Shown one piece after another: positions 2,903 through 27,359 of a DNA stretch of 44,846 nucleotides (the first letter of the stretch is position 1; every line of letters starts with the position of its first letter). The stretch is from a virus, in IMG/VR virus record IMGVR_UViG_3300042336_000548, positions 1 through 44,846 of that record; one strand, 5' to 3'. The translations under genes and the position numbers were made by a program. The notes beneath the pieces are model-generated. The model saw only the letters and a list, made by a program, of their open reading frames with translations. It did not search any database and was not told the origin of the DNA.

Positions 2903-2935
2903 AAATTTTTAAAGTTTATTAAACTTATAAAATTT
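2903..2935 (+). other. AT-only imperfect hairpin between the 921- and 999-codon genes
   Basis: Two 15-base arms (2903-2917 and 2921-2935) are complementary at 13 positions around a 3-base loop. It sits in the only sizeable gap (71 bases) of the rightward block before the giant genes. The stem is nearly all A/T with one G-C pair per side, so it would be weak. It could be a partial terminator or an RNA-processing site, or it may simply reflect composition. Confidence 0.3.
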
Positions 2936-2967
2936 TAATATATTTACAATATAGATAAAGATAAATT

Positions 2968-8900: not shown

Positions 8901-11900
8901 AAAATTTTTATGGATTAGTTAGAAAAAATACAGAATGGTCTAAAAGACTATATAAAAATAGAAAAAAATATTTTAGAGATTTAGTTAAACAAGAAATTGC
9001 TAATATTGAAAGTAATGCATTATTAAATGCAATGGCTGATGAAGGCCTTTATATGAGTGCTAATGACTATTCTGACTGGCAAACACTAAGAACTAGACCC
9101 TCTGAGTTTTTTAATTCAATAGACGGAGAAGTTTATAAAATAGATACTGTAAAATATAATGAAATATATGATAAGTATTTATCAAAAGATAGAGATTTAA
9201 AAGCAAAATCTAAATTTTCAGAAGTAAGTAATGTAATAGCTGATTATACTGAAGAACTTGTTAAATTAGAAGAAAAAAAACAAAATGAACTTGATCTTTT
9301 AGAAAAAACAGTTACACAAATTCCTGAAGAATCTATTAAATTAAAAGGAAATAATAAATCAATTAGTATTACAGAAGTTAACAATGAATTAAATAATAAT
9401 TCTTATATTGAACTTACTCCAAAAAATTCTGAAACAACAATAATATTATACAAAGATGATCAAGGAGTATTAAGATACAATGATGAAACAGGAGATGTAT
9501 ATGATTTAAATGATAAAACTAGATTTACTGAAAACAAAGTTTACTCTGAAGACTTGATTCCAGATCCAATAAAAGTAACTGAGATAGAAAATAGATATGC
9601 TAAAGAAAAATTAGATATTATTGAAAACTTTAAAACTTCTAGAAGTCTAACTGATTTAGAATTTGAAGATCCTTATATTATAGGTGAATCAGATTTTAAA
9701 ACTATGTCTGATGGATTAAAAGATAAACTTTACAAAGATTTTCAAACTACTTTGCCAAGTAAAACAACTGAAGATAAAATAAATGCTCCTGATGATTCTT
9801 CAAAAGCATTTCAAGATTGGGTTAATACTGATTCTTCTGCAAAAGCTATTATTGATGAATTTAATAAAGATATTGAATTAATATCAGAATTTACTTTTCA
9901 AAATAATGATAAAACTGTTAATACTAATGACTTAACTACTAGTCAAATAATAGATGTTGTTAATGAAAAAAGTAAAGAATTAAATAAATTAAGAGAAGAA
10001 TTATCTAAACTTAAAGAAAATGATCCTAATTATAATATTAAAAAATTAGAAATTGAAACTTTAAGTGAAGAAACAAAAAAATTACTTAAAGTTAATAAGT
10101 CTAGAAGTTTACAAGAAAGAACAACTCCTCAAAAAAAGGTAATTAAAGAAATAGAAAAACTTATAGCATTAAATAAATCAGTTCAAAAAGATTATGTACT
10201 AACTGAAGATGACCCGGTAACAGGTCTTAAAAAAGGAGATAAAGCCTATTTAATAGATAACTTAGTACACAGACGTGTTACTAATGCTATACAAGCTTAT
10301 TTAGAAAAATATGAGTATAGTAGTTATAAACTAGTAGAAAAATCATATGATGATACTATTAGAAAAAATGGTCTTAATGAAGCTTCTGTAGATGCCTTTA
10401 TTAAACTTTTAAAAGATGGTGGTGCATCAGGTATTAATGATAAATTATTTACTGAGTTATCTAAAGATATAAAATCTTTTATAACATCTAATGTAATAAA
10501 TAATGAAATTGAATCTTTAAATAACCAAATTAAATTTTTAGAAGAAGATATTAAATTATCTAAAAAAGCAAAAAATGAAGATAGAGTTAAAACTTTAAAT
10601 GCAGAATTAAAAACTTTAACTGCAGAATTAGCTGCTTTAGGTACAGATACTAAAGCTGATATAGAAAGAAAAACTACAAAAGTAATATCTTCAGAAATTG
10701 TAGAAAAAGGAAATAGAAAAGGTCAAACAAGAACCGTAACTCAGACTAATTTTGTAGAAAATGTAGAAGGTATATTAGTAAGTGTAACAGAGTATGAAGC
10801 AAAAGTTGGAGACACTACCGTAACATTAGGAGGGAAAACAATGACTGTTAAAGAATTTAAAGAAGAGTTTCCCTTAGATGAAGATTATAAAGGAATATTT
10901 GAAGGTCTGGATGATGATGCAAAAATTACAGTAAGAAAAGTAAAAAGAACTCCTACTAACTCAAGATTTGATAGTATTGTAAGTATTATATCTGCCGAGT
11001 TTGGTAAAATGGATGTAGGTACTAAAAAAAATGATAATGCTTATAATGCAGAACTAGCTGCTTTAGATACAACTGTTGAAACTGATATAAACAATGAAGA
11101 ACTTTTTGACAAAGTATTAAATTTAATATCAGAAAAATCTTATGAAGATGGAAGAGTTGCTGGTAACTATGTAGATTTAATTAAAGATTATTTTCAATAT
11201 GGAAAAAAACCTGAGTTTGATGAAAAAATAATTTCTAAAAAAGCATATGAAGAATTATTTAATGATGATACTGGATATATAGTTCAACTAGGTAAGAAAT
11301 TTAAAGATGAAGGTTACTATATTGTAGGTAATAATTTAGTTGTTTGGGATTCTAATATTGTTACTGAAGAAGGTAAAAAAGATAGAATTGCTGGAGAAAT
11401 AGATTTAATTGTAGTTGATAAAAAAGGTAATGCATTTATTATAGATATCAAAACAGGTTCTAAAAGTAAATGGACAAATTTTAATTCACCAACAAATAGT
11501 TTTGATAATAAAAAATATTCAAAAAGAAATGAATATACTTTACAACAAGCAGTGTATAGAGAGTTATTAAAAAGACAAACTGGTGTTGAAACAGAAATAG
11601 GATTATTACCAATAGAAAGAGAATCTGATAAAGAAACAGATCAAATTATTTCTGCTAAAAAACCATTAGCAGCAGGTTTAGCAAAAGAAGTAATTTATGA
11701 ATTTGATGCTGATGGTAAGGTTAAGAAAAAGAAATTTAAAGATCCTAAAGGTGATAAAGACTTTGAAGAAAAAATATTTAAAACAGGTCCTAATAATGCA
11801 ATTAATGATGTATTTATTCCTCTTTCATTAGAAAGTGTTGCGGAAGAAATAGATGATTTATTAGCACCTAAAGATGATGAAGGAGCTCAATCTTTTTCTT

Positions 11901-13000
11901 TTGAAAGTCCTGATATAAAACAAACATCACAAGAAGTACAACTTTTAAAAAATAAGAATGCAGTTATTATTAACAGTTATAAAAAAGATTTAGAAAATAG
12001 TCAAATATCTTTAGATAAGTTAGAAAATATATTAAAATCAATTACTATACCTGATATTTCAAATATAGCAATTGGTAATGCTTTTATTGCTGACAGACTT
12101 AAAGTATCTGAAGATGGAGATAATAAGTTTAAAAATTATTATGATAAACATAAATCATTTGAAGATAGTACAAAACCTCCTCATGAAAATCAATTAATGG
12201 CAGCTAAAATTTTAAATGCTACTAAAATTATTACTGATGTAGAATATCAAGCAATAGAATCTCAAGATTTAAATATGGCAGAAGTTTCTGAACTTATTCA
12301 TAATGCTGTAATAAGAATTGAATATTTAATTGCAAATGATACTTCTAATGCACAAGAATTTAAAGTATATCAAAAAACATTATTTTCTTATATGGGTCAA
12401 TCTTCTTTTCATATGAATTTACAAGATACAGTTAATGTACTTGGCAATTTAAATAAGACAAATTATAATTCTTTATTAACTAATGAAATTTTAAAATTAA
12501 CAAATAAACTACAATATGCAAAAATTGATTTTCAAAAAAAGAATATTCTAGGAAGTATTGAAAAGTTAAATAATTTAAAAGATAATTTACTATCTTTATA
12601 TGGTGAAGTTAAAGAAGAATTTGTTAGTCCTATAGAAGTTAATTCAAGATATTTTAAAAATAATAAAGATTATACACAAGTTACAGTTATGAAAGTTGAT
12701 GGAGATAAAATTACTATAAAAGGAAATAGAAAAAATTCTAAAGAATCAATTGTTAATACAAAAGATTTATTAAATAAAGACCTTTATTTAACTTCTGAAG
12801 ATATTGAAAATTTAAAATCTGAAGAAAGTACTTATGAAGCAAATGAGTCTGAAAAAACTATTTTAAAAGAAGTACAAAATACTACTGATACTTTTATAAA
12901 TTCTACTGAAGATAAAAATAAAGCAACTGAAATAGGATTAAAAGATAATATTAAAAAAATTGAAGATGATTTATTAACCAAAATTAAAAACTGTCAATAA
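5954..13000 (+). CDS. Giant virion-block protein with PD-(D/E)XK nuclease motif (2348 aa)
   Basis: This very large protein lies directly upstream of the RNA polymerase gene and overlaps it as TAATG. The clearest domain is near residues 1780-1870: GEIDLIVVD with D1817, then FIIDIKTGSK with D1831 and K1833, and a downstream Gln-rich helix (EYTLQQAVYRELL). This is the classic PD-(D/E)XK arrangement of RecB-type nucleases. Residues about 825-875 and 1515-1565 look like coiled coils. The first 600 residues contain Gly/Ala-rich, moderately hydrophobic stretches (around residues 235-275) that do not clearly make membrane helices. In characterised crAss-like phages, proteins from this position are packaged and ejected with the polymerase. 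The nuclease could act on host DNA or on genome processing. The fold call is good; the role is inference. Confidence 0.85.
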   Translation: MALNNNEEGFNPLDTLGPAVGSINSLNPDAKNYTPFEGDPIDFGKANPPALENPLVPKGLVNQSKNVRKYIVGTPPKKGGITYNSRGIDPKQKVSLIKNYLTSLSKSHAQKGSTAKLYSYNAGSSGNAHFKRYYAYGAETFDKIGFNPMKDNESTFNENTSAWQDFGRQLTHSFVPLFTRGFVAGPKSLLKMVHGDFTSGDLDDAREYEEAAAIGTSTKKGLVPFFSNTFMNFGYTAGIISEIVTEEIAAGLLAPVTGGLSFLGATKNSLSNVYKAAKGLKFAKDAENTVQTVQSLNNLKSANSFWKDANYLLDTPVGSFLNPINNARRSFQSAKASNLTNLATAFRTAGGFYQDVRSINAAISESRLEAGMVQDKVYNNKYDQFYLRNKRAPTNEEQEDMTKVSVKSGLETFYKNAGLIYGTNKITFGNILNKGGIKNYFKNATQDIMNVSHKSFGTIGRVLYDKTAKQFLYQSSVGYQGFKNLAKSWMKEPLSKSVLGSVKYFKSNFSEGFQENAQEIIARANEKWYTDSYNSPYLKASLFNNAVNSINLKNNSGTPLSIYNEELNKEFSAQGFETFASGFFMGTLGGGMNKTFSLLQNAYGRIFDKAGYKAWTEQKEAVTNTLVNELNKIDINDLLSNRYVNAGSQDTLSLIKEQANTKESKDAELDSLINQVSTMIRTGSSEIFQDKLKSLRDVSDEALQEELKFDDLKDAERYRLKIDKTINKIDSIKEAYETVSENFPNPINNDNMPDRSDPNYVEAAALRNGWDVAVKNIVYANEAFKDVANRISSIKQTYLKNSTLKNVSSSKISPLFQVKLLADSINSFELELDMLKKGVKSKTSTTIESDKIKINDLEEEISTLKEFKTSYDAFNRFTNRSEYTKEVQEELQQDTEQDITAEDIEEKMSKLYGKEDDEEKMIELLSNLKKSHDSYLRTLAKAQDTNIFSTELDDAFVQLVDFYKLNKDSRNLASHIELLSDPENFYGLVRKNTEWSKRLYKNRKKYFRDLVKQEIANIESNALLNAMADEGLYMSANDYSDWQTLRTRPSEFFNSIDGEVYKIDTVKYNEIYDKYLSKDRDLKAKSKFSEVSNVIADYTEELVKLEEKKQNELDLLEKTVTQIPEESIKLKGNNKSISITEVNNELNNNSYIELTPKNSETTIILYKDDQGVLRYNDETGDVYDLNDKTRFTENKVYSEDLIPDPIKVTEIENRYAKEKLDIIENFKTSRSLTDLEFEDPYIIGESDFKTMSDGLKDKLYKDFQTTLPSKTTEDKINAPDDSSKAFQDWVNTDSSAKAIIDEFNKDIELISEFTFQNNDKTVNTNDLTTSQIIDVVNEKSKELNKLREELSKLKENDPNYNIKKLEIETLSEETKKLLKVNKSRSLQERTTPQKKVIKEIEKLIALNKSVQKDYVLTEDDPVTGLKKGDKAYLIDNLVHRRVTNAIQAYLEKYEYSSYKLVEKSYDDTIRKNGLNEASVDAFIKLLKDGGASGINDKLFTELSKDIKSFITSNVINNEIESLNNQIKFLEEDIKLSKKAKNEDRVKTLNAELKTLTAELAALGTDTKADIERKTTKVISSEIVEKGNRKGQTRTVTQTNFVENVEGILVSVTEYEAKVGDTTVTLGGKTMTVKEFKEEFPLDEDYKGIFEGLDDDAKITVRKVKRTPTNSRFDSIVSIISAEFGKMDVGTKKNDNAYNAELAALDTTVETDINNEELFDKVLNLISEKSYEDGRVAGNYVDLIKDYFQYGKKPEFDEKIISKKAYEELFNDDTGYIVQLGKKFKDEGYYIVGNNLVVWDSNIVTEEGKKDRIAGEIDLIVVDKKGNAFIIDIKTGSKSKWTNFNSPTNSFDNKKYSKRNEYTLQQAVYRELLKRQTGVETEIGLLPIERESDKETDQIISAKKPLAAGLAKEVIYEFDADGKVKKKKFKDPKGDKDFEEKIFKTGPNNAINDVFIPLSLESVAEEIDDLLAPKDDEGAQSFSFESPDIKQTSQEVQLLKNKNAVIINSYKKDLENSQISLDKLENILKSITIPDISNIAIGNAFIADRLKVSEDGDNKFKNYYDKHKSFEDSTKPPHENQLMAAKILNATKIITDVEYQAIESQDLNMAEVSELIHNAVIRIEYLIANDTSNAQEFKVYQKTLFSYMGQSSFHMNLQDTVNVLGNLNKTNYNSLLTNEILKLTNKLQYAKIDFQKKNILGSIEKLNNLKDNLLSLYGEVKEEFVSPIEVNSRYFKNNKDYTQVTVMKVDGDKITIKGNRKNSKESIVNTKDLLNKDLYLTSEDIENLKSEESTYEANESEKTILKEVQNTTDTFINSTEDKNKATEIGLKDNIKKIEDDLLTKIKNCQ

Positions 13001-16000
13001 TGATTACTTGTTCAATTAATAATCCTGAAATTGTTAGTTTATTATATTCACACATAACAGCTCAATTTAAAATATCTTCTAAAGAAGGTGTTTTTAATTA
13101 TGAAAATTATTTAAAAAGTTTATATAAAAAGTTTGCTGAAGCTACTTCACCTGAAGTAGCAGCTAAATATTTACAGTCTGTACCAAGATTAATTATTGAT
13201 GTAGCAAATACAAATTTATCTTTTATAGATATTGATGTTGATTTATCATCTTTAAGAAAATTAAGTGGACAGTATATGTCAGATAATGCAATCAATATAA
13301 TAATTGATACTTTATCAGATAAAAAAATAAACTTAAAAAATATTATAGATAGAATAAAATCAAATGAAATTGAAGAAGAAGATGATGAAAATGAACCACC
13401 AGAACCTTCTAGTAAATCAAAAAGATTATTAACTGCTTCTCCATTGAGTGGAACATTACAAACATTAAAATCTAAAGATCCTAATAAAAAGTTAATCATA
13501 GAAGAAGATGATCCCGGTAGAGCACATATAGTAAAAGCACTTGAAAACATATCAGCTTCTCAAAATATGGAAGAGGATATATATACTGTTATGTATCAGG
13601 GTAAAAAATTAATGTTTAAACCATTTATTTTAAATGATTTTTTTACTAAGAATGAAAGTTTACTTGATCCAACTACTATAACTGAAGTTAAGGATTCTAG
13701 ACATTTATCATCACAAGGAAAAAATCAAAAAAATGTAATTCAGGCAGATGAAAAAATAATCTTAGTAATCACTGATACAAACGGTAAGTTTTTATATTTT
13801 GACAAAGATGGTAATTTAGCTGAAACTGGTAAAATTGTTTATCAGTTTATGAGAAATGCTTCTGTTGAAAATAATAAAATAGTTGTAAAAGATTTTTATG
13901 GTAAAGCTATAACTATACAATCTGCAGAAACTATATACAAAAATACTTATGATCCAGAAATAAATGGTTCTACAGCTGAAGACCAGGCTTTATTTCTTAA
14001 AGAAATTAAAGAGACTTTAAAAAAAGAATCAGAACAACTGTTAGCTCTACAAAATAAAATTAAAAATAAAAAAAATACAGAAGACTTATTATTACCAATA
14101 ACAAATATATCAACTGGTATTACAGAAAATAAAATTAGTGATACATATAAGTTAAAAGAATTAATAGATAGTACGCTATTTAATAAAGAGAGTTTAAAAA
14201 CTATTGATGCTTCATCTAAAAAAGCAACTATATCTTTTAAAAATGAAAAAGTTGAAATTGACAGAATGAAAATGTCAGATCAACTTGCAATAAAAATTGC
14301 TAAAGTTTTAACTAATAAAAATTTAAAAAATAAAGTAAAATTAAATTTTGTAAAGCAGTTTTTATTCTTAGATTCTAAAGGTAATAGAAACTTTTTAATT
14401 AAAGAAGAAGGTTCTAATTTAATATTTAAAATAATTGACAAAGATTCTAAAGAAATTATTGAAGAATTAAATGTATCTAATATATCTGATGATAGTATTG
14501 AAGATTATGAAACTAAAATTAAAAATATTTTCTTTAATAATCCTCCATATCTTTTTTATAACAATGAATTTATTAAAGGAAATCATGTTTATAATGATTA
14601 TAATACAGAAACAAAAGAAATTGTTCAAGCTGATTATTTAGATTTAATTATTAGTTTAAATCCTAATATAGATTTTAAAAACATATCTAATGATGTTTTT
14701 AATTTTGTGGTAAATTTTTCAGCAGAAGATGTATCTTTTGATAATATAAAAGAAAGTATAGAATCTGATGAAGTTGAATCTGAATTATCTTATGATTATT
14801 TTTTAGAAAAAGCTAGAAAAGACCTTGCAGAAAACTTTAAACCTGGTCAAAAGTTAAGTTTTTCACTGTTTAATGTTATTAAAAGAGCTCTTGATAATGG
14901 AGAATTTAATACTCAAGAACAATTTACAAAAATTATAAATGAGTGGACAGAAATGTCAAGTTATGATGGACAACCTTCAGCCATTACTAATAAACAAAAA
15001 GAATATTTTAGAAGTCAATTTTTAGCTTTACCTAAAGAAAAAGTTGAGACTAAAGAAGTTAAAGAAATAAAATCAGAAACAGATGTTATTCAAAATACTA
15101 TTGTTCCAGGAGCAGCTAGTCCAAATGATACTGATACTGGTATTGATATAAATCATCCAATATTTAAAGGTCTTGATAGAAAAGGATTTAAAAAAGAAAA
15201 AATAACTCAAGAACAACTTGAAGATATCAATACTTGGTGGAATAGTAAAGCACTTGAACCATTAAGAAAAGTAATTTCTTTTAAACAAGTGTTTAACTTA
15301 GTTAATTCAGATGTTTATGCAACATTTATAGTTAATGCAAGTAAAATAGCTAATCCAGATGGAAGTTTAGCAACTATAGCAGTAAATAGAAAACAAGGAG
15401 ACATATTCCAAAATCTTACTTTGTATCATGAATCATGGCATATATTTTCACAATTGTTTTTGACTCCTCAAGATAAAATTAAATTATATACTGAATTAAG
15501 AAATTATACTGATTCAAAAGGGAATAAACCAAATATAAATAAATCTTATTTAGAGTTAGAAGAAATGTTAGCTGAAGATTTTAGAAATTATGCTAAAAAT
15601 CAAAAGCCAAGTCCTGAGACACCAGTTAAAAATACTTTGTTTAGAAAAATGCTTAATTTTTTAAAAGCATTATTTGGTAAACTAAATGTTTTTTCTAAAA
15701 AAGATATACTTGTTGATAGCATGAATTCTCCTATGGCAAAAGACTTATTTAATAAGTTATACATAGGAGAAATTAATAATTATAAACCTTTAATAGAAAA
15801 TGCTATTTTATATGAACTTGACCGTGGAATTAGAAAAGTTAATAATCCTTCTATAGATATATTAAGTAATCAAGATTCTTTAGAAGTAACAATGACAATA
15901 GATAATATATGGGCTGAGCTATTGAGTGACATATATAATAAAAGAAAAGCAGCTGGAAAACAAAATTTAAAAGCAGCTAATGTTTTATTTTTAAAAGGTA

Positions 16001-19000
16001 TTGAACAAAAAGAATATTTGTATAGAGAAACTAAAAAAATTCTAGAAGATAAACTTAAGAAAGAACAAGAAAAATTTAATAAAATAGAAGGTGTAACTGA
16101 AAATTATACAGAGTTAATTACTGATTCTATATCAGAAACTGTTTTAAGTCCGGAACAATCTGTTATACTTGATAATATAAGAATACTACAAACAACACTT
16201 GATAACTGGGGAAGTAAAGGGTCAGGTGTAATTAAATATCATTCAGAAAATAGTGATTTTAAAACTTCAAAAAAAGTATATGATATTGCAGTAGATGCAA
16301 AAGAAGAAACAGAACAAGAAGAAGGAGTTGATGAATTAACAATAGATGCTGTACCTGGAAAAATATCACTTCAGGACATGTTATCTAAAGAAACTATATA
16401 TGTAATAAAATCTTTATTTAAAGTTGTTAGAAACAAAAATGGAGATATTAGCACACCTGTTGATAGATTTGGATTTAAAGAAAGAGCTGATTTTTCAGAT
16501 ATATTTAATATGTTATATGGAATAATTGGTAATATATCCAATAGAGATGAAGCATATAAAAAATTAGAAAAAGAATATAAAAAATATCCAGAATTAAAAC
16601 AATTCTTTGAAGAAAAATATCCTGAACCTAACACTACAAATACTTTTGAGTATGACTTAAGTGTATCATTTTTTAATGATTTTGGAAAACCTAATGTTAA
16701 ATATGTACAATTAGTTGCATCCCGTGATGAAACTGTAAACTTTCAAGTAATTGAACTTTCTATGGAAACTTCTTCTATTATTGAGAAGTGGATATCTGAA
16801 TTTAATAGTTTAAGTATTTATAATGAGTTTATAGATGTTGTAGCTAATGTCCCTAATTTAAATTTAGATAAAGTTGTTAGTGAATTTAAACAAACAAAAG
16901 AAAATGAACTTGATAATAATAAACAATTAGAATTTGCAAATGCCATAGGAATAGGATTAGCTAATAATAATAATATTAAAGATGAATTAAAAAATAATTC
17001 TACACCTTATGGATTAAAATATATATTTAGAATTTTAAGTGCATTTAATAATGTTGATAAACTTCCACAACAAACACAAACAGCTTTACAAAAAAAATAT
17101 ATAAAAGACTTTAAAGAAAATCCAATAAAAATATTAAAAGAAGAAATTCCTAAAAATATTTTACCAGAGATAGATAAAGTAAATGTTATTAAACAAAATA
17201 CACAAATAAAAAATTTAGCAAAACTTCAATCTCAATATGGATTTGATAGTTCAACTAATGCTGTAATTAGAGCTGATGGTAATGTTGCATATGAAACAAT
17301 GAATGCAAGTTCAGTTACAAATAACTTATATGCAATAAATTCTGTATCTAAACAAGATGAATTATGGAATGGTAAAAACCCTATTCTTAATCACATGAAT
17401 TTTTTAGATCCAAAAATAAATGCTTTTACCAAAAATCTTGTAATGTTTCAAAGTTTATTTGGTATAGATAAGGTTAAAATTAAAGGCAAAGATTTAAATT
17501 TAATTGTTATAGATGGTACTTCTGAAATGGATGGTTCAGGAACAATAACTACTAAACTAGACCCTTTTAGTAAATTTATACAGGATATTAATATGATGCT
17601 TCTTAATGGTAAAGCTGAGTTAGGAAGAACAGCAGATAAGAAGATGTCTTTTGGTTTAACAGTGAAAGGAGGTTTACTTAAACCAACTCTTGCAGATGGA
17701 ACAAAAGGAACTGATGATAATATTTTTGTTGATCCAATAATGTTTACTTCTCAAGAAGACGCTGGTGAAATGTATGCTATTGAAGGTTATCTATTAAAAT
17801 ATATAGAAAGTGAATTTGACAGAATAAAAAAATTCAAAGGTGCTGATAGAGATGAGTTATTAAAAATAACTGGATATAATCAAGTAATAAAAAAAATTAA
17901 AGGAAAAGATATTTATGCAGGTGAAGTATTTGCAGCATTTGATAATTTATTATCTGATAAAACTAAAAATGAATTATATAAGTTAGCTGTTAAAGAAGAT
18001 ACAATATCAACATTACTTGAACTTTTAAAACAAAAAGATAATGCAGATTTAAAAAATAATATTCAAAATGAAATTAAAAAATATTTTAATGACAAAGTAA
18101 GTGAACTTAAAAAATATTATTATAATCCTATTAAAGAAAAAAATATATTCTCAAAAGGTATATATAAAAAACTTGGTATGGAGGTTAATAATCAAGCTGA
18201 CTTAAACATGCTTAATGGAAATGAAGAATTATCTGATGTATTATTAAAAGCTTTTTTATATAATGATTGGATATATAAATTTGAAACCTCAACTTTATTA
18301 TTTGGAGATATAGCTCAATGGGATCATTCAAAAGAAGATTGGACAAAAAGAATACCAGGTGGTACTTCTGATGGTATTAGATTTTTATTTGATGAAGGAA
18401 CTATTAATTTTATTAATAACACATTTAACAAACCTACAGAAACAAATGCTACTTATGCTTCTGAACTTAACAAAAGCTTAAGTAAAGATAATATAGATTA
18501 TAATAAATATGTATTTAGTGAAGTAATAAATACAGGAGTTATTAAAGATGCTACAAGAGAATCTATTTATATAGATGATTTAGTTGAAGCCTGGAGAGAA
18601 GATTATTTAAAAACTTTTAGTGAAGCAGAGACTGAAGAAAGAATCAAAGAAGATAGAGAAGCTTATGAAAAAATAGTTGAAAGTGATGGTATGGCTTTTA
18701 TGACTATTGATGCCTATAGAATATTACATAAAGTAAGTGGAAGAGGCTGGTCAATGGAGCAAGAAAGTTTATACCAAAAAATTGTTAAAGGAGAAACTAT
18801 TGATCCAAATACAGTTAAACAATTTTTTCCTATATATAAGTTACATTTATTTGGTGCTATAAAAAATAAGTATTTGCCAGCAATTGCTATGCATAAATTT
18901 GCTGTTAGTCCTTTAATACCAGGAGTGAATGCAAAAGAAGGATCTGAACTATATAAGTTGCATCTTAAAATGTTAAAAGATAATGTTCAGTATGTAACTT

Positions 19001-22000
19001 TTAAATCAGGTTCAAAAGGTTCTGAACTTACTAGTAATGGAGAAACTGATGATATTTTTGAAGATAAAACTGAAAATACTGGCATCAGTGATGATTTTAC
19101 ATTTACTATTAATCCAGTATACCTTGCTAACTTAAAAGAAGTTACAGTCATTAATGATACCTTTAAAGGAGGTCTTCCAATTGCTACACAAACAAGAGTA
19201 ATATTAACAGACACATTATATGATAATGGAGAGTTAATTAATCCAAAAAATAAAAAAACATTAGATAGTTATAGTAAAATAGTAAATGACTATAGTGCAT
19301 TACTTAAATTAAAATTACTTAATGAAATTGGTTTTACTGAAAAAGATGGAAAATATGTAAGCAATGGTGATTTTTCAAAGTTTATAAAAATTATCAGGGA
19401 TAACTTAGATGAAAGAGATGTGCCTGACCATTTAATTAGATTATTAAATGCAACTAAAAAAGGTAATGCTGCATCTATGGATTTTTCTATACATCCTGAA
19501 GCTCAAACAATTGAAAAACTTATAATGAGTATTGTTCAATCAAGACTAATTAAACAAACAATTAATGGTGAACCTTTAACTCAAGCTGCTTCTACATTTA
19601 CAAATGGACTTTGGAATACTCAATATAAAACAATTACTAAAGTTTCTGAAATTAAAAAAGTATTAGGTACAAATACACTGCCTTCTTACATACGAAATAA
19701 AAATGGTAGAACAGGTTTAATGAAAGTAGCTATTGCATTGCAAGGAGACTTTATTAATCTTTTAAATGGAAATGACTTACAAGGTAATAAAATTGGTACT
19801 ATAACAAGATTAAATGAATTAATTAAAGATGATGCTTGGTTAGAAAAAAATAGACTTTCAATATCTTTATATGGTCCAAGAATTCCTAATGATGCATTAA
19901 GTACAATTGAAGGAGCTGAGGTATGGCATTTTCTAGATGAAAGTTATGGTAATGCTATTATTGTTCCAACAGAAATAGTTGCTAAATCAGGTTCTGATTA
20001 TGATGGTGATAAATTATTTATGAGTATGCCTAATATTGATATAGAAGGTAATTATATAAATACCCCAATAAAAAACTTTAATAAAATATTAAAAGAAACA
20101 AAAGATAAAGAGTTTACTGGTACACTTGAATTAGGTGCATTAACATCTAATAAATTAATTAAACAGCAAGAAAAGTATTTACAAAATCAATACATTAAAA
20201 TAAGTTTAGATATTTTAACTCTTCCTGAAAACTTTGCAATACTTACAAAACCTAATTTAACATATTTAGTAGAAAAATATAGTAAATCTTTAGAAAATAA
20301 TATTGTAAATGAGTATAATAGATTAGATAATGTTTCTTATACTGATAGTGAAGTTGGTGAAAAAAATAAAAGTGCAGATGGAAAAAAAGAAGTTATAAGT
20401 CCTTCAAGAAATTATGATTATATCTATAATTTATACAAGTTTGCTGCTAATTTATCTTTAGAACCTTCATTAGGAATACAAGCTAAAAATACAAAGAATC
20501 ATGTGCTCTTTAAAATGTTGGGTGCTAAGATGCCAAAGTCATATAAAAACTCTGTTTTTAATAAAAATTTACGTGAGTTTGAAGATGGTTTAATTGACAT
20601 TCCTTTTATTATAAGATTTAAACACAACATTATAAAATCAAAAAATGGTGATGAAGTAATTTCTATATCAGGTAATAAGTCTCAAAAAGGAAATAGAATT
20701 ACAGATCTTAATTCACACATGCTTAATGGTATTTTAGATAGAGCAAAAAATTCTTTCCCTTTTGTTTTACAACTAACTCCTGAAGGAATAGGTGTAATAA
20801 GTTATTTAATGCAAGCAGGTGTAGATGAAGAAGAAGTTTTTTATTTTGTAACTCAACCTTTAATTAGAGAATACTTTTTTAAACAAAGATTAGAAAATAG
20901 TTCTTTAAATCCATTAATTTCTACAGATGCTCAATTTGAAAAAAGTAATAAATATAATATTGCATCAGAAATAAGCAATAAAATTTTAAATACTTTAGCA
21001 CCAGATGAATTACAAAGAATTATTAATAGTGTTACATTATTAAAATTAAGAACTACAATAAAGTCTTTAGAAAAAATATATCCTGCTGATGATGAATATT
21101 TAATAAAAGATAATAAAAAACAATCATCTTATTATACTTTAAATGAATTAATAAAAGGATTAAATAATAAAAAAATTAATCCATTAAATATTATCAGCAT
21201 TAAAAGTAATAATAATGAAGTTGTATATGATATAGTAAAAAGTCTTGAAAATAAAATTCTTGATAATAAAACTAAAACTTATGATTTTAGTAACAACTAT
21301 ATTTATTTATCAGAAGTTTTATCTAGAGCATTATTTAAAGATGATATTAATATATCTGATTTAAAAGAATCAATGAATAATGATGCATCTTTAAAATCTT
21401 TGGCTTTATTTTTAAATTTTATTGAACTAGAAAAACAATATGAAGGTCTGGAAACATTGCAAATGATTTATGCACCAGATACTAGTAAACTTACTACATT
21501 ACAACAAGTTATAAAAAGAATAGAACTTTTTGATAAATTAAAAAGAAATTCTAAAATAGATCAAGAATTTCTTACTGCTTTAATGAAAGATTCTTTGCTT
21601 TCATCTTTTAATCAGGATGCATTAATGATTGATTTAATCAAACCTTTATTTAAATTAAGATTAGATAAAAATATTTCTTCTTTTATTTCTGAAAAGTTAT
21701 TAAAAGAAAGAGCTAGAATTACAAGAAAATTTGGTAAAGGTGTTAAAGGTGAAGAATATTTTACTTCATCATATAATAATGCTGTGGTAGATTATATATA
21801 TCAAAACTATATGTCTAATTTTACTAATCCAGTAAATGGAAAACATATAACTATTCCTAAATTTTTAAGTTCTAAAGATGTTATAATTGATAATACAATA
21901 GAACAAGATGTAATTGTTGGAAAAAATATAATTGTAAATGAAGAAAAATTAAAATCAGATTTTGATAATAAAATATTTTTAAATGATGATGCTTTAGATA

Positions 22001-23889
22001 TGTTTGAAAAAAATAAAAATCCATTTCAAACATTTTCAAGTTATGTAAGATATGTAATGGAAAGAGAAGTACTAAGAGATTCTTTAGTTGATACTGAAGT
22101 AACTGAAGAATACTTATCTGAAGTTGCTTTATTAAAAAGTTTTAATTCTCCATACATAATGGGAAAAACTAAATATTCATATTCAGAAAGTATAATGAAT
22201 ATTATAAATAATTTTGATGATACAAAAGTAAATTTTCCAGTTTTAAATCATATAATTTTAAAAAGTAATAAAAGAAATATAAATAAAGTATTAACTTTAA
22301 ATAACAAATCTTTATTAACTAAAGAAATATCTTCTATTTATAATAAAAACTTAAAAGATCTAGCAGACCCTACAATAAATAAAGATAAAAAATCTTTAGA
22401 ATTTTTTAAACCTTTTTCATTAATTCTTTTTTATCAACATGGTTTTGGAAACAGTAAATTAAGTATCAATAGAGTTCTAGATGCTAAAAAATTTACAGAT
22501 GAAATGATTGATGCATCAACATTTTTTATTAATGATTTAGAAAGTAAAGATTTTTCTTTTGTTACTTTAAATAATATTTTTAGTAAAGTAATAGATGTAA
22601 AAAATAGACAGTTTATTGAATATACTGAAAATGCAGATCAATATAACAATCCTGTTAAAAAAGATATTGATGATGGCATAGAAATAGAATTTGATTTAGA
22701 AAATGAAGAAAATATTATTAAAACTAAAATTATATCAGATGATGATATTGCTGCATATAATACATATTTAGAAAAATCTAATGGTGTTAAACCTAAAGAA
22801 TTTTTTACTCCTTCTACATTTTTTAAAGAATTTTATAATTCACAAACAGGAAAAAAAGAAAAAGCACCGCATAGTACATCATGGATTTTACAAAAAAATA
22901 ATTTATATAATTTAGTAGATAAAGATGGAGGTGAAATTGTTATTGAAAATGTTGATTTAAAAACTGGTTATAAAATTACTAATCAACCTACTCAACCACC
23001 TATTAATGGTAATAAATTTAATAAGAAAAATTTATTTACTGTAACTCCTATACAATCTGTTGATAAAAAAGCAATTATTAAAGCCAGTATTGCTACTCAA
23101 TATATAGGATTTGGTGAGGGTATACCGGGAAGTTCAACAGAAACTTATAGACAACAAGCAGGAGACTTAGCTAATACAGGTAATTATTCTGCTGATGATA
23201 TTATATTTGTATCTGTTCCAGGTAAAAGAGGTACTGAATTACAACAAAAAACTCAACAAGATAGAACTATTAAAGAAGCTATAAAAGCTATAGAAGCCGG
23301 AGCTACTATTCTTACTGATAATAAAATTTATATAGATTTTAATAAATATAATACAGGAGAACAAAGACTTTATAAGAATATGGAAGCTAAAGGCTATAAC
23401 TATTCTGAAATTACAGTTGATGGTCAACTTATTGGTACTTGGAGTAAATCTACTCAATCATCTACTAGTGTTCCTATTAAAAAAGAACTTGAAGGACTTA
23501 ATGAAGCTAGAGAAGTTTATGAAAGTCTTTTTATAGCTACTGGTAAACCTCCAATAACTTTTACAGTAGGTGTAAGTACATGGAAGTTAAATAAAAATTT
23601 TAACTATGATTTAATTGATCAAGATACCGAGGAAGTATTACTAGCAAATGTAAATATGGTAACTGGTATAATAGAAGAAGATATTGTAGAATCAATACCA
23701 TTAACTGCAAAACAAAAAAATGATTTTATTAAAGATTTTGAACAAAAAGTTATAGCTTATAATTTAGATGAACTTCTTTCTTTATTTAATATAAATATAC
23801 AAGATGTTTATAAAAAAATAAATAATGCAACTACAAAAGAAGATTTAATTGAAATAGAAACAGAAATAAATAACAAATTATGTCAATAG
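13000..23889 (+). CDS. Giant virion RNA polymerase protein with zincin metalloprotease motif (3629 aa)
   Basis: The protein carries SGSDYDGDKLF with D2333, D2335 and D2337, matching the DxDGD catalytic signature of two-barrel RNA polymerases (crAss-like gp66, YonO and QDE-1 families). About 40 residues upstream, YGPRIPNDALSTIEG resembles the conserved Arg-Pro segment that precedes the catalytic loop in cellular beta-prime subunits. Residues about 1950-2010 (MHKFAVSPLIPG, then FKSGSKG) fit the first barrel region. Thus the polymerase spans roughly residues 1940-2500. Separately, residues 810-814 are HESWH with an acidic stretch (LELEEMLAEDF) about 45 residues later, a zincin metalloprotease pattern. 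A C-terminal domain at about 3363-3490 has IGFGEG, FVSVPGKRG and GATILTDNK. Phi14:2 gp66 is packaged and ejected to transcribe early genes; the same is inferred here. At 3629 residues it is far longer than gp66. It ends in LCQ followed by TAG and overlaps the next gene by 10 bases. Confidence 0.92.
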   Translation: MITCSINNPEIVSLLYSHITAQFKISSKEGVFNYENYLKSLYKKFAEATSPEVAAKYLQSVPRLIIDVANTNLSFIDIDVDLSSLRKLSGQYMSDNAINIIIDTLSDKKINLKNIIDRIKSNEIEEEDDENEPPEPSSKSKRLLTASPLSGTLQTLKSKDPNKKLIIEEDDPGRAHIVKALENISASQNMEEDIYTVMYQGKKLMFKPFILNDFFTKNESLLDPTTITEVKDSRHLSSQGKNQKNVIQADEKIILVITDTNGKFLYFDKDGNLAETGKIVYQFMRNASVENNKIVVKDFYGKAITIQSAETIYKNTYDPEINGSTAEDQALFLKEIKETLKKESEQLLALQNKIKNKKNTEDLLLPITNISTGITENKISDTYKLKELIDSTLFNKESLKTIDASSKKATISFKNEKVEIDRMKMSDQLAIKIAKVLTNKNLKNKVKLNFVKQFLFLDSKGNRNFLIKEEGSNLIFKIIDKDSKEIIEELNVSNISDDSIEDYETKIKNIFFNNPPYLFYNNEFIKGNHVYNDYNTETKEIVQADYLDLIISLNPNIDFKNISNDVFNFVVNFSAEDVSFDNIKESIESDEVESELSYDYFLEKARKDLAENFKPGQKLSFSLFNVIKRALDNGEFNTQEQFTKIINEWTEMSSYDGQPSAITNKQKEYFRSQFLALPKEKVETKEVKEIKSETDVIQNTIVPGAASPNDTDTGIDINHPIFKGLDRKGFKKEKITQEQLEDINTWWNSKALEPLRKVISFKQVFNLVNSDVYATFIVNASKIANPDGSLATIAVNRKQGDIFQNLTLYHESWHIFSQLFLTPQDKIKLYTELRNYTDSKGNKPNINKSYLELEEMLAEDFRNYAKNQKPSPETPVKNTLFRKMLNFLKALFGKLNVFSKKDILVDSMNSPMAKDLFNKLYIGEINNYKPLIENAILYELDRGIRKVNNPSIDILSNQDSLEVTMTIDNIWAELLSDIYNKRKAAGKQNLKAANVLFLKGIEQKEYLYRETKKILEDKLKKEQEKFNKIEGVTENYTELITDSISETVLSPEQSVILDNIRILQTTLDNWGSKGSGVIKYHSENSDFKTSKKVYDIAVDAKEETEQEEGVDELTIDAVPGKISLQDMLSKETIYVIKSLFKVVRNKNGDISTPVDRFGFKERADFSDIFNMLYGIIGNISNRDEAYKKLEKEYKKYPELKQFFEEKYPEPNTTNTFEYDLSVSFFNDFGKPNVKYVQLVASRDETVNFQVIELSMETSSIIEKWISEFNSLSIYNEFIDVVANVPNLNLDKVVSEFKQTKENELDNNKQLEFANAIGIGLANNNNIKDELKNNSTPYGLKYIFRILSAFNNVDKLPQQTQTALQKKYIKDFKENPIKILKEEIPKNILPEIDKVNVIKQNTQIKNLAKLQSQYGFDSSTNAVIRADGNVAYETMNASSVTNNLYAINSVSKQDELWNGKNPILNHMNFLDPKINAFTKNLVMFQSLFGIDKVKIKGKDLNLIVIDGTSEMDGSGTITTKLDPFSKFIQDINMMLLNGKAELGRTADKKMSFGLTVKGGLLKPTLADGTKGTDDNIFVDPIMFTSQEDAGEMYAIEGYLLKYIESEFDRIKKFKGADRDELLKITGYNQVIKKIKGKDIYAGEVFAAFDNLLSDKTKNELYKLAVKEDTISTLLELLKQKDNADLKNNIQNEIKKYFNDKVSELKKYYYNPIKEKNIFSKGIYKKLGMEVNNQADLNMLNGNEELSDVLLKAFLYNDWIYKFETSTLLFGDIAQWDHSKEDWTKRIPGGTSDGIRFLFDEGTINFINNTFNKPTETNATYASELNKSLSKDNIDYNKYVFSEVINTGVIKDATRESIYIDDLVEAWREDYLKTFSEAETEERIKEDREAYEKIVESDGMAFMTIDAYRILHKVSGRGWSMEQESLYQKIVKGETIDPNTVKQFFPIYKLHLFGAIKNKYLPAIAMHKFAVSPLIPGVNAKEGSELYKLHLKMLKDNVQYVTFKSGSKGSELTSNGETDDIFEDKTENTGISDDFTFTINPVYLANLKEVTVINDTFKGGLPIATQTRVILTDTLYDNGELINPKNKKTLDSYSKIVNDYSALLKLKLLNEIGFTEKDGKYVSNGDFSKFIKIIRDNLDERDVPDHLIRLLNATKKGNAASMDFSIHPEAQTIEKLIMSIVQSRLIKQTINGEPLTQAASTFTNGLWNTQYKTITKVSEIKKVLGTNTLPSYIRNKNGRTGLMKVAIALQGDFINLLNGNDLQGNKIGTITRLNELIKDDAWLEKNRLSISLYGPRIPNDALSTIEGAEVWHFLDESYGNAIIVPTEIVAKSGSDYDGDKLFMSMPNIDIEGNYINTPIKNFNKILKETKDKEFTGTLELGALTSNKLIKQQEKYLQNQYIKISLDILTLPENFAILTKPNLTYLVEKYSKSLENNIVNEYNRLDNVSYTDSEVGEKNKSADGKKEVISPSRNYDYIYNLYKFAANLSLEPSLGIQAKNTKNHVLFKMLGAKMPKSYKNSVFNKNLREFEDGLIDIPFIIRFKHNIIKSKNGDEVISISGNKSQKGNRITDLNSHMLNGILDRAKNSFPFVLQLTPEGIGVISYLMQAGVDEEEVFYFVTQPLIREYFFKQRLENSSLNPLISTDAQFEKSNKYNIASEISNKILNTLAPDELQRIINSVTLLKLRTTIKSLEKIYPADDEYLIKDNKKQSSYYTLNELIKGLNNKKINPLNIISIKSNNNEVVYDIVKSLENKILDNKTKTYDFSNNYIYLSEVLSRALFKDDINISDLKESMNNDASLKSLALFLNFIELEKQYEGLETLQMIYAPDTSKLTTLQQVIKRIELFDKLKRNSKIDQEFLTALMKDSLLSSFNQDALMIDLIKPLFKLRLDKNISSFISEKLLKERARITRKFGKGVKGEEYFTSSYNNAVVDYIYQNYMSNFTNPVNGKHITIPKFLSSKDVIIDNTIEQDVIVGKNIIVNEEKLKSDFDNKIFLNDDALDMFEKNKNPFQTFSSYVRYVMEREVLRDSLVDTEVTEEYLSEVALLKSFNSPYIMGKTKYSYSESIMNIINNFDDTKVNFPVLNHIILKSNKRNINKVLTLNNKSLLTKEISSIYNKNLKDLADPTINKDKKSLEFFKPFSLILFYQHGFGNSKLSINRVLDAKKFTDEMIDASTFFINDLESKDFSFVTLNNIFSKVIDVKNRQFIEYTENADQYNNPVKKDIDDGIEIEFDLENEENIIKTKIISDDDIAAYNTYLEKSNGVKPKEFFTPSTFFKEFYNSQTGKKEKAPHSTSWILQKNNLYNLVDKDGGEIVIENVDLKTGYKITNQPTQPPINGNKFNKKNLFTVTPIQSVDKKAIIKASIATQYIGFGEGIPGSSTETYRQQAGDLANTGNYSADDIIFVSVPGKRGTELQQKTQQDRTIKEAIKAIEAGATILTDNKIYIDFNKYNTGEQRLYKNMEAKGYNYSEITVDGQLIGTWSKSTQSSTSVPIKKELEGLNEAREVYESLFIATGKPPITFTVGVSTWKLNKNFNYDLIDQDTEEVLLANVNMVTGIIEEDIVESIPLTAKQKNDFIKDFEQKVIAYNLDELLSLFNINIQDVYKKINNATTKEDLIEIETEINNKLCQ

Positions 23890-26800
23890 GAAATTGTATA
23901 AATAGAAATTCAAAAGAGTATATAGATAAGTTAGCAGAAAATAATGGTGACCAAGCTGCTACTGATAAATACTTTAACTATGCAGATGAGGATGAACTTT
24001 TATTTGATATGAGTTCAGTAATGGAAGAAGGTGCTACTATAGATCAAACAGAAGTAAAAGAAAATAAAGATATTTCTGCTGAACAAAAAATAGAAATACA
24101 ATCTTTAGTTGAAAAAATAGAAGTTGAACTTAAAAAACAATTAAGTGCTTTATCAGGTCAAAAATTTAAATCAAAAGAAAAAGAACTTTTTACTTTAAAA
24201 ACAACTATTGAAAAATTAAAAGTAGAAAAAATAAATGAAGACATAGATACTATACAACAAATCAAATCTCTTGAAATATTTGTTGATGATACATTAAGAA
24301 AATTTAGACTTTTAAATAAAGATTTTCAAGATTGGATAAAACTTTCTGCAAAACCAAATTTATCAGATACTCAAAAGAAAAATTTAATGAAAGATTTTTC
24401 TCTTATTTTAACTAGAATAAATAACTATACTATACTAGATGCAATTGATAAAGCTGATATTGATAGCTTTTTTAAAGGAGATAAAAATACTCTTTCTCAA
24501 ATGGGTATAGATATTAATAAAATGACTCCTCAAGCAAGAATAACAGAATCAATTGCAATTAGAGATAAGATGAAAAAAGATCTTAATAAAAGTGCAATTC
24601 CACTATTAGCAAGTTTTATTTTAAAATATAAACCAGAATATGGTGATGCAAAAATTTTAGATCAAATTGAAGCTATTGATAAAAGAATAGAAGATACTAG
24701 AAATTATCCTAAAAATAAACCAGAATATATTGCTAAAAGAGTTAATGAATTAGAAGCAACAAAAAATAAACTTTTAGGTTTTACATTAGATGAAAAAACT
24801 TTAATAGATCAACTAACAAGTACAAATATTGATGAATCATTTTTTAATTATTTAGTTGATCCTTTAATAAGTTCAGAAGATAATGTAATAGCATTGTTTG
24901 CTAAAGCAATAAAAAGTGAAATGGAAACTGCTAGATTACAAGATATAAAAATTAAAAATGATCTTTTTAAAAATTATTTAGAACCATATTTTAAAACTTA
25001 TAGTAGAGCTACATCAATTAAAAATTTATATTCTGGAATATATGAAGAAATAGATACTTTTAAAAAAAATGTAGATTATGATGAAAATATAAAAGATAGT
25101 GAAGCTTATTTAAAAACTACAAGACTTGCTTTTGTACAAAAATATGATATAAATAAATATAATACTGAAAGATATAAATTTTTTAAAGATTTAGGTAAAG
25201 AACCTACTGAAGCAGTAGCATTAATTGCATATAAAAAGAAAAAAAAGGATTGGTATAACGCTAATACTACTAGTGTAGATCAAAGTATAAAAGATGCTGC
25301 TATAGCAGAAAAACAAAATGATTTAGTACAAGGATTTATTGATGAAGATACCTTTAACAATTGGGCATCTAGTATAGATTTTAATAGTGAATTTATAAGA
25401 CCCGCAGATAAATATTTAAATAAAAATTGGACAAGTTTGTATGATGCAAATGGAAAACCAAAAAATGAAAAAGGAAGATTGCATGAAGGGTTGACTAAAT
25501 TATATTTTGAACAACAAGAAAAATTACCATCTTCAAAAAGACCTGGTTATTATGTACCATCAATTCCAAAATCAACTAATGAAAGATTACAAACTAATAT
25601 AATTCAAGGTACAAAACAAACATTTAAAGAAGCATTTAATGTACAAAATTATGAAGATGATTTTGGTAACTTATCTGAAAGTTCTGCAATTGCAGGTGAA
25701 GGAAATAAAAACTTACCTATATATTTTATAAGTGAAATGTCAACTGATATTGTATCATATGATTTAGGAGCTAGTGTATTACAGTTTAGTGCTATGTCTA
25801 ATAAATTTGATGCATTAAATAAAATACATGCTGAAATTAATTTATTTAAATTTGCTATAGGTGATAGAGTTGTTGAAAAAACAGACTCATCTGGACAAAA
25901 TATTTTAGATAGTTTTGCTAAAAAATTAGGATATAATCTTCCTATAATATCAAAAGGACAATTTGATAATAATAGTAAAGCTCATGTAAATGCTTTCATT
26001 GATATGATTATATTTGGTGAAACTCAACAAGTATCTAGTTTTGAAACTCTTGGTGCAAAATTTGACTCAGGAAAATTAACAAATTTAGGAATTGCATATT
26101 CTGCATTAACTTCTATTGCTGGAGACTTATTAAAAGGTATTGCAAATAATTTACAAGGAAATATTCAATTAATAATTGAAGCTAATTCTGGAGAATTTTT
26201 TACTAAAAAAAATCTTTTAACTGCAAAAACAAATTTTATATCTGATACACCTGCTGCTCTTGGAGATTTTTTTCAAGGTAATGTAGCTCCTAAAAGTTTT
26301 CAAGGAAGACTAGTAGAACTTTTTGAACCTATGCAAGGTGATTTTACAGATGAATATGGAAAAGTAGTTTCAGCTTCTGTTGCCCGTAAACTTATGAGTA
26401 CAAATACATTATTTTTTAACCAACATTGGGGTGAATATGAAATTGCAGTTAGTAATATGTATGCATTAATGCATGGAACAAAAGTTTATGATATTGAATC
26501 TAAAAAAATAATTGATCTATATGAAGCATATAAAAAATATATAAATTCTCCTGAAGGTACAAATTTAGAAGGTAAAGTAGAAATAGTAATTCTAGATGCC
26601 TATAATGCACCTATAATGGAAGGAACTGAATATAAAACATTACCTTTTACTGATGCAAGAAGACAAGATTTTCAAAATAGATTACATGCATTAAGTAAAA
26701 GAATGCAAGGTATTTATAATAAGTTTGATAAAAGTACATTTCAAAAATATAGTATAGGAAGACTTATTCTTATGTATAGAAAACATATGGTTCCTGGTTT

Positions 26801-27359
26801 TAAAAGAAGATTTAAAAAATTATCATATGATATTGAACTTGATAGTATGACAGAAGGTTTTTATAGAGTATTTTTAGATACTGCTGGAAGAGACTTAAAA
26901 AAACTTAAATTTAATTTAATAAAAAATTGGTCAACTTACAGTGCTTTTGAAAAAGCTAGTATAAAAAAAACAATAATGGAACTATCAATAATATTATCTT
27001 TAGTATTAGCTTTATCATTACTTACAGGAGATGATGATGATGATGAAAAAGGATATTTTATGAATTTATTTGTATATCAACTTACAAGAATGAAATCTGA
27101 AACAGCAGCATATGTAAGTATAAAAGATGCTTACCGTCAAGTAAGAAGTCCATCTGCAATGTTAACATCTGTTGATAGAGTTATAAAATTTCTTGGTCAA
27201 TTAACTTCTCCTTTTGAAGTATATGAAAAAAAATCAGGTGTTGTTGAAAAAGGAGATAATAAAGCATGGGTTTATTTTAAAAGAATGATGGGCTTTAGTG
27301 GTTATAATTTTAATCCAGAAGAAGCTACAAAATTATATAAGTCTATATCAGAACGTTAA
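23880..27359 (+). CDS. Large virion-block protein with a C-terminal membrane segment (1159 aa)
   Basis: This is the last gene of the rightward block, starting inside the end of the polymerase gene. The first 130 residues are acidic and then coiled-coil-like (residues about 55-125). The middle is alpha-rich without a motif I recognise. Residues about 1033-1052 form one strongly hydrophobic helix (IMELSIILSLVLALSLLTG) followed at once by DDDDDEKG, a single predicted transmembrane segment with an acidic flank. Basic, helix-rich sequence lies on either side (GFKRRFKKL upstream). A membrane-active segment in a protein encoded with a virion polymerase would fit a role in crossing or docking at the host membrane during ejection, but this is inference. 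The N-terminus (NCINRNSKEYI) resembles that of the preceding giant protein. Confidence 0.85.
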   Translation: MSIGNCINRNSKEYIDKLAENNGDQAATDKYFNYADEDELLFDMSSVMEEGATIDQTEVKENKDISAEQKIEIQSLVEKIEVELKKQLSALSGQKFKSKEKELFTLKTTIEKLKVEKINEDIDTIQQIKSLEIFVDDTLRKFRLLNKDFQDWIKLSAKPNLSDTQKKNLMKDFSLILTRINNYTILDAIDKADIDSFFKGDKNTLSQMGIDINKMTPQARITESIAIRDKMKKDLNKSAIPLLASFILKYKPEYGDAKILDQIEAIDKRIEDTRNYPKNKPEYIAKRVNELEATKNKLLGFTLDEKTLIDQLTSTNIDESFFNYLVDPLISSEDNVIALFAKAIKSEMETARLQDIKIKNDLFKNYLEPYFKTYSRATSIKNLYSGIYEEIDTFKKNVDYDENIKDSEAYLKTTRLAFVQKYDINKYNTERYKFFKDLGKEPTEAVALIAYKKKKKDWYNANTTSVDQSIKDAAIAEKQNDLVQGFIDEDTFNNWASSIDFNSEFIRPADKYLNKNWTSLYDANGKPKNEKGRLHEGLTKLYFEQQEKLPSSKRPGYYVPSIPKSTNERLQTNIIQGTKQTFKEAFNVQNYEDDFGNLSESSAIAGEGNKNLPIYFISEMSTDIVSYDLGASVLQFSAMSNKFDALNKIHAEINLFKFAIGDRVVEKTDSSGQNILDSFAKKLGYNLPIISKGQFDNNSKAHVNAFIDMIIFGETQQVSSFETLGAKFDSGKLTNLGIAYSALTSIAGDLLKGIANNLQGNIQLIIEANSGEFFTKKNLLTAKTNFISDTPAALGDFFQGNVAPKSFQGRLVELFEPMQGDFTDEYGKVVSASVARKLMSTNTLFFNQHWGEYEIAVSNMYALMHGTKVYDIESKKIIDLYEAYKKYINSPEGTNLEGKVEIVILDAYNAPIMEGTEYKTLPFTDARRQDFQNRLHALSKRMQGIYNKFDKSTFQKYSIGRLILMYRKHMVPGFKRRFKKLSYDIELDSMTEGFYRVFLDTAGRDLKKLKFNLIKNWSTYSAFEKASIKKTIMELSIILSLVLALSLLTGDDDDDEKGYFMNLFVYQLTRMKSETAAYVSIKDAYRQVRSPSAMLTSVDRVIKFLGQLTSPFEVYEKKSGVVEKGDNKAWVYFKRMMGFSGYNFNPEEATKLYKSISER

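Follow-up and report, generated by a model that had tools for sequence, protein, structure and literature searches.

According to the literature, PhicrAss001 virions carry three giant proteins (gp47, gp49 and gp50), which require partial unfolding to pass tail constrictions of <50 Å. Disulfides were found in the tail of these virions and at their portal vertex, and both reduced and non-reduced samples have been published (Bayfield et al. 2023). A review gives sizes of up to about 6000 residues for the giant proteins of crAss-like phages. In phage N4, the giant virion polymerase (gp50) has a zincin-like domain and is packaged uncut; Iyer et al. 2017 (PMC5512222), who note this, describe zincin peptidases that are fused to virion polymerases of the N4 type and propose self-processing for them. 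By what means, and in which sequence, phages move several hundred kilodaltons of enzyme through a narrow tail is an open problem. The present analysis concerns a virus fragment of 44,846 bases (IMGVR_UViG_3300042336_000548; hereafter, the window, i.e., the whole stretch that was analysed), on the + strand of which a 999-residue protein is followed by a run of giant ones, designated Proteins A, B and C. Protein B is a two-barrel virion-type RNA polymerase of the family of gp66 from phage phi14:2 (PDB 6VR4), and its chain also holds a zincin-like motif; taken alone, both belong to known kinds. The new element is a cysteine rule: across the crAss-like phages sampled, cysteine pairs flank the gene breaks between these proteins and those breaks only. 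In the literature searched, which included a search for "cysteine" in crAss papers and had the founding polymerase papers outside its scope, no mention of this rule was found.

Proteins A, B and C of the window amount to 7136 residues with four cysteines in total, all of them at most six residues from a protein end (Table 1); the probability of such an arrangement by random placement is 6.5 × 10−10. Among the − strand genes of the window, 17 out of 20 hold 4–40 cysteines per 1000 residues, and three small ones hold none. The same terminal pattern, in differing sequences, was observed in 80 loci selected by their polymerase: the tails of A read ...DLDC, ...NCQ or ...ICE, the heads of B MITC, MAITC, MKITC or MINC and its tails ...KLC or ...KCK, while C starts with MSIGNC, MLGNC, MPC or MSFC. 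Inspection by eye of 21 named genomes (Suoliviridae, Steigviridae, Intestiviridae, Crevaviridae and Flavobacterium phage Fpv1) revealed a cysteine pair at each break shown in all 21. In Fpv1 (L136), whose record does not place the phage in Crassvirales, a 4401-residue protein with HEVIH near its end terminates in ...NCN and the next one begins with MAC.... In addition, 25 of 333 entries (e.g., L043, L049, L050 and L051) read better with TAG as a residue, and the cysteine rule holds in those of them that were read by eye.

For the main count, 389 of 418 entries had a recognisable polymerase frame and were grouped into 272 clusters with 367 junctions. The relatives sampled were the best 80 of 457, the best 80 of at least 466 and the best 80 of 457; L001 (a fragment of the window itself), the controls (L143–L145), an entry cut at both ends (L334), protein ends at contig edges and near copies were dropped beforehand. 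Cysteines were found on both sides of 302 junctions and on neither side of 62, and only three junctions were discordant (Fisher p = 9 × 10−67, kinship being handled by clustering alone). The A|B junctions comprised 121 with both, 58 with neither and two discordant, and the B|C junctions 181, four and one, respectively. These figures rest on a lenient rule for the N-terminus, by which any ATG within the first 60 codons was accepted; once only the first ATG was accepted and the windows were shortened, 448 of the 461 unclustered junctions agreed. At the free ends of the series, the N-terminus of A was without cysteine in 49 of 49 cases and the C-terminus of C in 128 of 131, and a cysteine pair is lacking at most junctions that precede A or join smaller cargo proteins.

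The pairs disappear wherever neighbouring genes are fused. In Suoliviridae, A and B form one protein, which has no N-terminal cysteine and keeps the C-terminal one facing C; in Intestiviridae and Crevaviridae, B is fused with C, and the A|B pair alone remains. Seven apparently fully fused frames of 4942–5683 residues have no terminal cysteine and 0–3 cysteines overall, five of them (4942–5646 residues) having none anywhere, and eight further ones from a later sample (5005–5641 residues) have 0–2, full fusion being judged here from length and from the lack of a following giant frame within the few kilobases examined. The lengths of the polymerase frames follow the same order: the median is 3344 residues with cysteines at both ends (n = 89), 4427 with one at the C end only (n = 46), 4579 with one at the N end only (n = 27), and 5496 with cysteine at neither end (n = 9, range 2126–5683). 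Conversely, extra splits bring extra cysteines. In L104 and L069, a protein of 671 and 767 residues, respectively, with cysteines at both ends stands between B and C, and in L193 the post-polymerase part is divided into two proteins with a cysteine pair between them. The pair also accompanies breaks that are placed differently: in the clade of the window, the A|B break precedes the zincin, and in others it follows it, with a pair either way, the median distance from the start of B to DxDxD in frames with an N-terminal cysteine being 2500 residues with the zincin inside (116 frames) and 1656 without it (85 frames). Where A is encoded on the opposite strand, it ends in cysteine and B starts with one in eight of eight clusters.

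A prediction set beforehand was scored on 84 loci, taken from one scan of genomes and one new scan of viruses (best 80 of 315 relatives; L334 left out). All of the 59 new junctions, from 50 new clusters, agreed with it, with 45 pairs, 14 junctions without cysteine and no discordant case; the new clusters share less than 75% of words with the old ones, yet remain relatives. The lenient start rule was used for scoring, and 45 of 45 paired junctions also meet the stricter one. As a control, 242 opposite-strand genes of the same loci, with 14 cysteines per 1000 residues, were analysed: a cysteine was found within residues 2–9 in 23 of them and within the last 12 in 25, and, by the counting windows, near the N end in 41 and within the last 25 residues in 55. 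These genes supersede an earlier non-cargo control (39 of 79 with an N-terminal cysteine), which contained proteins of the block itself.

Comparison with described systems revealed the same arrangement in phi14:2 and L226 and its absence from N4, T7 and P22. In phi14:2, g066 has cysteines at positions 3 and −2, g067 at −1 and g065 at 3. The B and C proteins of L226 have masses of 276.9 and 154.5 kDa, which are the masses published for PhicrAss001 gp50 and gp49 (Bayfield et al. 2023); by elimination, the A protein of PhicrAss001 would be gp47 (262.5 kDa); B holds cysteines at 5 and −9 and C at 5, while A, in contrast to that of the window, is encoded on the opposite strand and, cut in this entry, ends with a cysteine at −3. 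The words "protease" and "cystein" are absent from the main text of that report. N4 gp50 is likewise giant and packaged, with no cysteine in 3500 residues, but it contains a T7-type polymerase, is a single chain and has no terminal cysteine. N4 gp51 and gp52, which we take to be ejected, are also free of cysteine, as are T7 gp15 and gp16 and P22 gp7, gp16 and gp20. In total, the internal or ejection proteins of N4, T7 and P22 (L143, L144 and L145) contain one cysteine in nine proteins, and T7 gp14–gp16 together with the three P22 proteins one in six, while, of ten other virion and terminase proteins of these phages that were checked, nine hold 2–11 and one, the N4 major head protein, none. Thus, cysteine-poor internal proteins are not special to crAss-like phages. 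The T7 and P22 proteins differ in having no head-and-tail cysteine pairs, and it is these pairs by which the crAss-like phages stand out.

The first-pass annotation of the window had reported a 3629-residue frame at 13000–23889 with HESWH at residues 810–814, DYDGD at 2333–2337 and YGPRIP upstream of it, and all of these were found. A tblastn search with 600 residues around DYDGD matched 65 phage records, and the 40 matches listed are all crAss-like by name (cr..._1, crAss002, PhiCrAssBcn, etc.), with 22–29% identity. In a 27-sequence alignment of residues 1400–2590, R-I-P and D-x-D-x-D are invariant, and hmmsearch with the derived profile found 6VR4 (E-value, 4.4 × 10−27) as the only PDB sequence at E ≤ 1. 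The AlphaFold2 model of this core (mean predicted local distance difference test score (pLDDT), 78; predicted template modelling score, 0.76) best matches 6VR4 in Foldseek (E-value, 5.6 × 10−29; TMq, 0.62), followed by QDE-1, which bears out the proposed kinship with gp66. Four pentatricopeptide-design chains that phmmer matched to residues 1827–1923 in a search with the whole protein (E-values, 2 × 10−4 to 1 × 10−3) were judged to reflect helical similarity. Because a segment of the modelled Protein B further upstream matches gp66 residues 76–512 (Table 1), gp66 is the equivalent of Protein B without its first ~870 residues, the zincin motif lying just ahead of that point. The size of the frame, which had been regarded as exceptional, is not a novelty: cr118_1 and cr50_1 have frames of 4946 and 4774 residues, and frames of 4000–5700 residues are ordinary among crAss-like phages. 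In cr108_1 (L042:19344-19635), the polymerase frame breaks off within the catalytic motif and continues ~290 bases later, and in cr116_1 (L138:19596-20437), a 648-base gene separates its two parts; both are possibly introns.

The gluzincin-like motif, HExxH plus a conserved glutamate, is judged from sequence conservation to be real and to share a chain with the polymerase; its protease activity is putative. In the first, 34-row alignment, H810, E811, H814 and E859 are kept in all rows and E855 in 33; E855 and E859 lie 45 and 49 residues past the first histidine, and their roles as ligands are presumed from gluzincins. Since these rows had been gathered partly with patterns from the HESWH motif itself, the relatives were re-sampled with polymerase patterns alone (best 80 of 457, four of them cut upstream, and several copies of one contig included). 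HE[AS][WF]H was found in the same frame in 76 of 76 assessable loci, and the third-glutamate pattern in 73 by script and in the other three by eye. Over the 272 clusters, the polymerase frame contains HExxH in 144 (139 of which show the third-glutamate pattern), and in 28 the motif stands at the end of the upstream protein; of the 252 clusters that could be assessed, 80 yielded no such motif, the remaining 20 of the 272 not being assessable. Within Suoliviridae (cr118_1, cr10_1 and cr50_1), the motif lies in the same giant protein as the polymerase. In cr112_1, crAss002, ZA, cr11_1 and others, it is located near the C-terminus of a separate upstream protein, the third glutamate not being aligned in crAss002. 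CrAssphage ZA and cr11_1 share the gene block of the window, including HESLH or HENLH near a C-terminus and a cysteine pair at the break, but their zincin is part of A rather than B, the RNA polymerase (RNAP) gene is separate, and B and C are fused. In phi14:2, by contrast, gp66 begins just past the place of the zincin, and neither g066 nor g067 contains HExxH. A role of the zincin merely as the separator of A from B is weakened by its persistence in genes that are already split and its absence elsewhere.

The fold of this region is less clear than the motif. Helices are predicted at residues 803–820 and 850–867, matching HExxH and the glutamates of the following helix. The model of residues 690–1400 (28 sequences; mean pLDDT, 66) had no Foldseek match at E ≤ 0.001, in VIA-align gp66 alone scored above Z 5, and a scan of 28 members against Pfam yielded scattered weak matches with no peptidase among the 25 families shown. 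Of the structural comparison suggested in the first-pass annotation, the polymerase part was borne out, while the zincin part yielded a weak model. The pairing of the motif with a polymerase, highlighted there, is conserved, though not new: the records of CrAssphage ZA and cr11_1 annotate the neighbour protein as "putative RNAP associated protein fused to zincin protease". The polyvalent proteins of Iyer et al. 2017 unite several unrelated domains with a zincin peptidase in one injected chain; Protein B holds polymerase and zincin motif in one chain, and its injection is putative. What that annotation observed is correct and ordinary in kind, and its interpretation is partly supported. A further HExxH was noticed in the protein downstream of the polymerase in L031, L041, L047, L140, L336 and L337.

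It is reasonably probable that A, B and C form the head-packed cargo train of a crAss-like phage, in which host-reducible disulfides bridge the gene breaks. From the patterns described, we infer the packaging of Protein B, the disulfide, the threading order, the reductive release and the protease activity. Protein B would be the middle link of a three-part train ejected through the tail; its two-barrel polymerase would start early transcription, and the gluzincin-like motif would sit just before the gp66-equivalent part. Cysteines would be excluded from the chains because the cargo must pass unfolded: interior thiols in crowded unfolded chains would cross-link randomly and are presumably avoided for that reason, while those at the breaks would be indispensable and so retained. 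At a break in the train, the upstream protein would offer one thiol on its tail and the downstream protein one on its head, and the two most likely join as a disulfide in the virion, which would be the simplest bond joining two lone cysteines. A, B and C would then leave as one thread in that order, and the host cytoplasm would reduce the disulfides, uncouple the train and free the polymerase. In fused genes, a peptide bond would serve instead; since both cysteines are lost upon fusion, the pair seems to stand for the same thing as that bond. Cysteine avoidance has a parallel in the RTX proteins of type I secretion. If true, the bridging of breaks by cysteines would explain the order and equal numbers of the cargo proteins, why cysteine is absent elsewhere, and why the cargo is shuffled among one to four genes. 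The evidence leaves evenly poised the wider proposal that crassviruses and their kin inject a single thread of several thousand residues, whose gene may be cut in many places given flanking cysteines; a disulfide would stand in for the lost peptide bond, hold outside the cell and come apart in the cytoplasm, making redox the switch for polymerase release. Thioredoxin-like genes occur near the polymerase block in L133, L135, L139, L141 and L042, which may or may not matter.

Several observations weigh against a disulfide-coupled train. The support for the disulfide is comparative, and the gut is a reducing environment, so that disulfides might not form there unaided. Three junctions are discordant: that of L092, though the expected MVNC start exists in another frame; that of L190, where the downstream neighbour has nine cysteines per 1000 residues and is probably not cargo; and that of L246, where the upstream neighbour of 787 residues is perhaps not A. 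The proteins of L246 hold 5–19 cysteines each, though the B|C pair is kept, and the B+C fusions of six named Intestiviridae hold 4–15; interior cysteines therefore seem to be tolerated in places. L305 breaks the rule once. In L052, L133 and L141 (Intestiviridae), the smaller cargo protein ends in cysteine and the N-terminus of its downstream neighbour has none, and T7 gp14 carries a lone cysteine at residue 2, for which neither gp15 nor gp16 offers a partner.

Other explanations were weighed against the same data. The first-pass annotation had suggested that the chain carries its own protease, which would cut either the giant chain itself, while the virion is assembled or the cargo ejected, or host proteins on entry. 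Conservation of the presumed zinc-binding and general-base residues and the location of the zincin, with an N-terminal module on one side and the gp66-like part on the other, agree with this, and P1 DdrB, which carries such a domain, is processed (Iyer et al. 2017, PMC5512222). We nevertheless regard it as rather doubtful, given that the N4 virion polymerase stays uncut, that the model of the zincin region had no Foldseek match at the above threshold, and that HExxH was not found in the 80 clusters mentioned above; in its simple version, it is further opposed by the retention of HExxH where the polymerase is already separate (cr112_1, ZA, cr11_1 and crAss002). A different reading accepts the terminal cysteines as functional and makes them ligands of a metal, or of a docking partner that they share (the portal, or cargo protein 1), so that they are paired by assembly, with no disulfide. 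Cysteine is a classic metal ligand, several copies of A, B and C may allow a four-cysteine site, and the smaller cargo protein of Intestiviridae ends in cysteine in three genomes; this is unlikely all the same, as there is usually one cysteine per end, and the simultaneous loss of both upon fusion points to mutual partners.

It is more improbable still that each cysteine serves as a tag for packaging or ejection and is read at its own protein end, separately from the others. The N-terminal one often lies within a short recurring motif (MxITCALS... or ...CPNKNSxEW), as a tag might, but the outer ends of A and C are nearly always free of cysteine and fused proteins would bear fewer tags. Finally, some crAss-like phages are dense in inteins and introns according to Yutin et al. 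2021, and the cysteines might be a DNA-level or historical artefact, either of codon context in overlapping genes or of intein scars left at former splice points. This is hardly credible: the pair is kept when A lies on the other strand and when the break is placed differently, it is missing at most smaller-cargo junctions and before A, and useless scars would not last so long.

Table 1. Positions of the cysteines, the domains and motifs and the surrounding giant genes in the window.
Feature	Position	Strand	Basis or remark
Cys2347 codon of A, tail side of A|B break	12992–12994	+	translation
Cys4 codon of B (MITC), head side of A|B break	13009–13011	+	translation
Cys3628 codon of B (...LCQ), tail side of B|C break	23881–23883	+	translation
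Cys6 codon of C, head side of B|C break	23895–23897	+	translation
Protein B	13000–23889	+	3629 residues, ATG start; virion-type RNA polymerase, N-terminal extension, zincin-like motif
Protein B cysteines	residues 4 and 3628 only	+	translation
Zincin-like region, about residues 708–930	15121–15789	+	conservation; approximate limits
HESWH, residues 810–814	15427–15441	+	motif, alignment
E855-M-L-A-E859	15562–15576	+	probable third zinc ligand plus partner
Protein B residues 948–1382	15841–17145	+	matches gp66 residues 76–512 (VIA-align Z 8.8, root-mean-square deviation 6.4, 330 aligned)
Polymerase core, residues 1400–2590	17197–20769	+	profile, AlphaFold2 model vs 6VR4
YGPRIP, residues 2291–2296	19870–19887	+	alignment numbering
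DYDGD, residues 2333–2337, catalytic DxDxD motif	19996–20010	+	motif, alignment
Protein A	5954–13000	+	2348 residues; sole cysteine 2347 (...KNCQ)
PD-(D/E)XK nuclease-like domain	Protein A residues 1801–1908	+	Pfam DUF3799, E-value 3.3 × 10−7
Protein C	23880–27359	+	1159 residues; sole cysteine 6 (MSIGNC)
999-residue protein	2968–5967	+	upstream of A; no cysteine; occupies cargo-protein position

As regards the remainder of the window, no near match to its first 25,000 bases was found among 50,697 phage records, and in a PHROGs scan of 22 of its proteins, capsid, portal and terminase were never the best family with a clear score. The same analysis assigned the − strand genes on the right-hand side to DNA polymerase, exonuclease, ATPase, primase, Sak4-like protein and DnaB-like helicase. 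The block of giant genes thus faces a replication block on the opposite strand, which is the layout of crAss-like phages. PD-(D/E)XK nuclease-like domains such as that of Protein A are known from crAss transcription blocks (Yutin et al. 2021). At the left end of the window (131–2896), a 921-residue protein contains 16 cysteines, the first twelve of which lie at or after residue 484.

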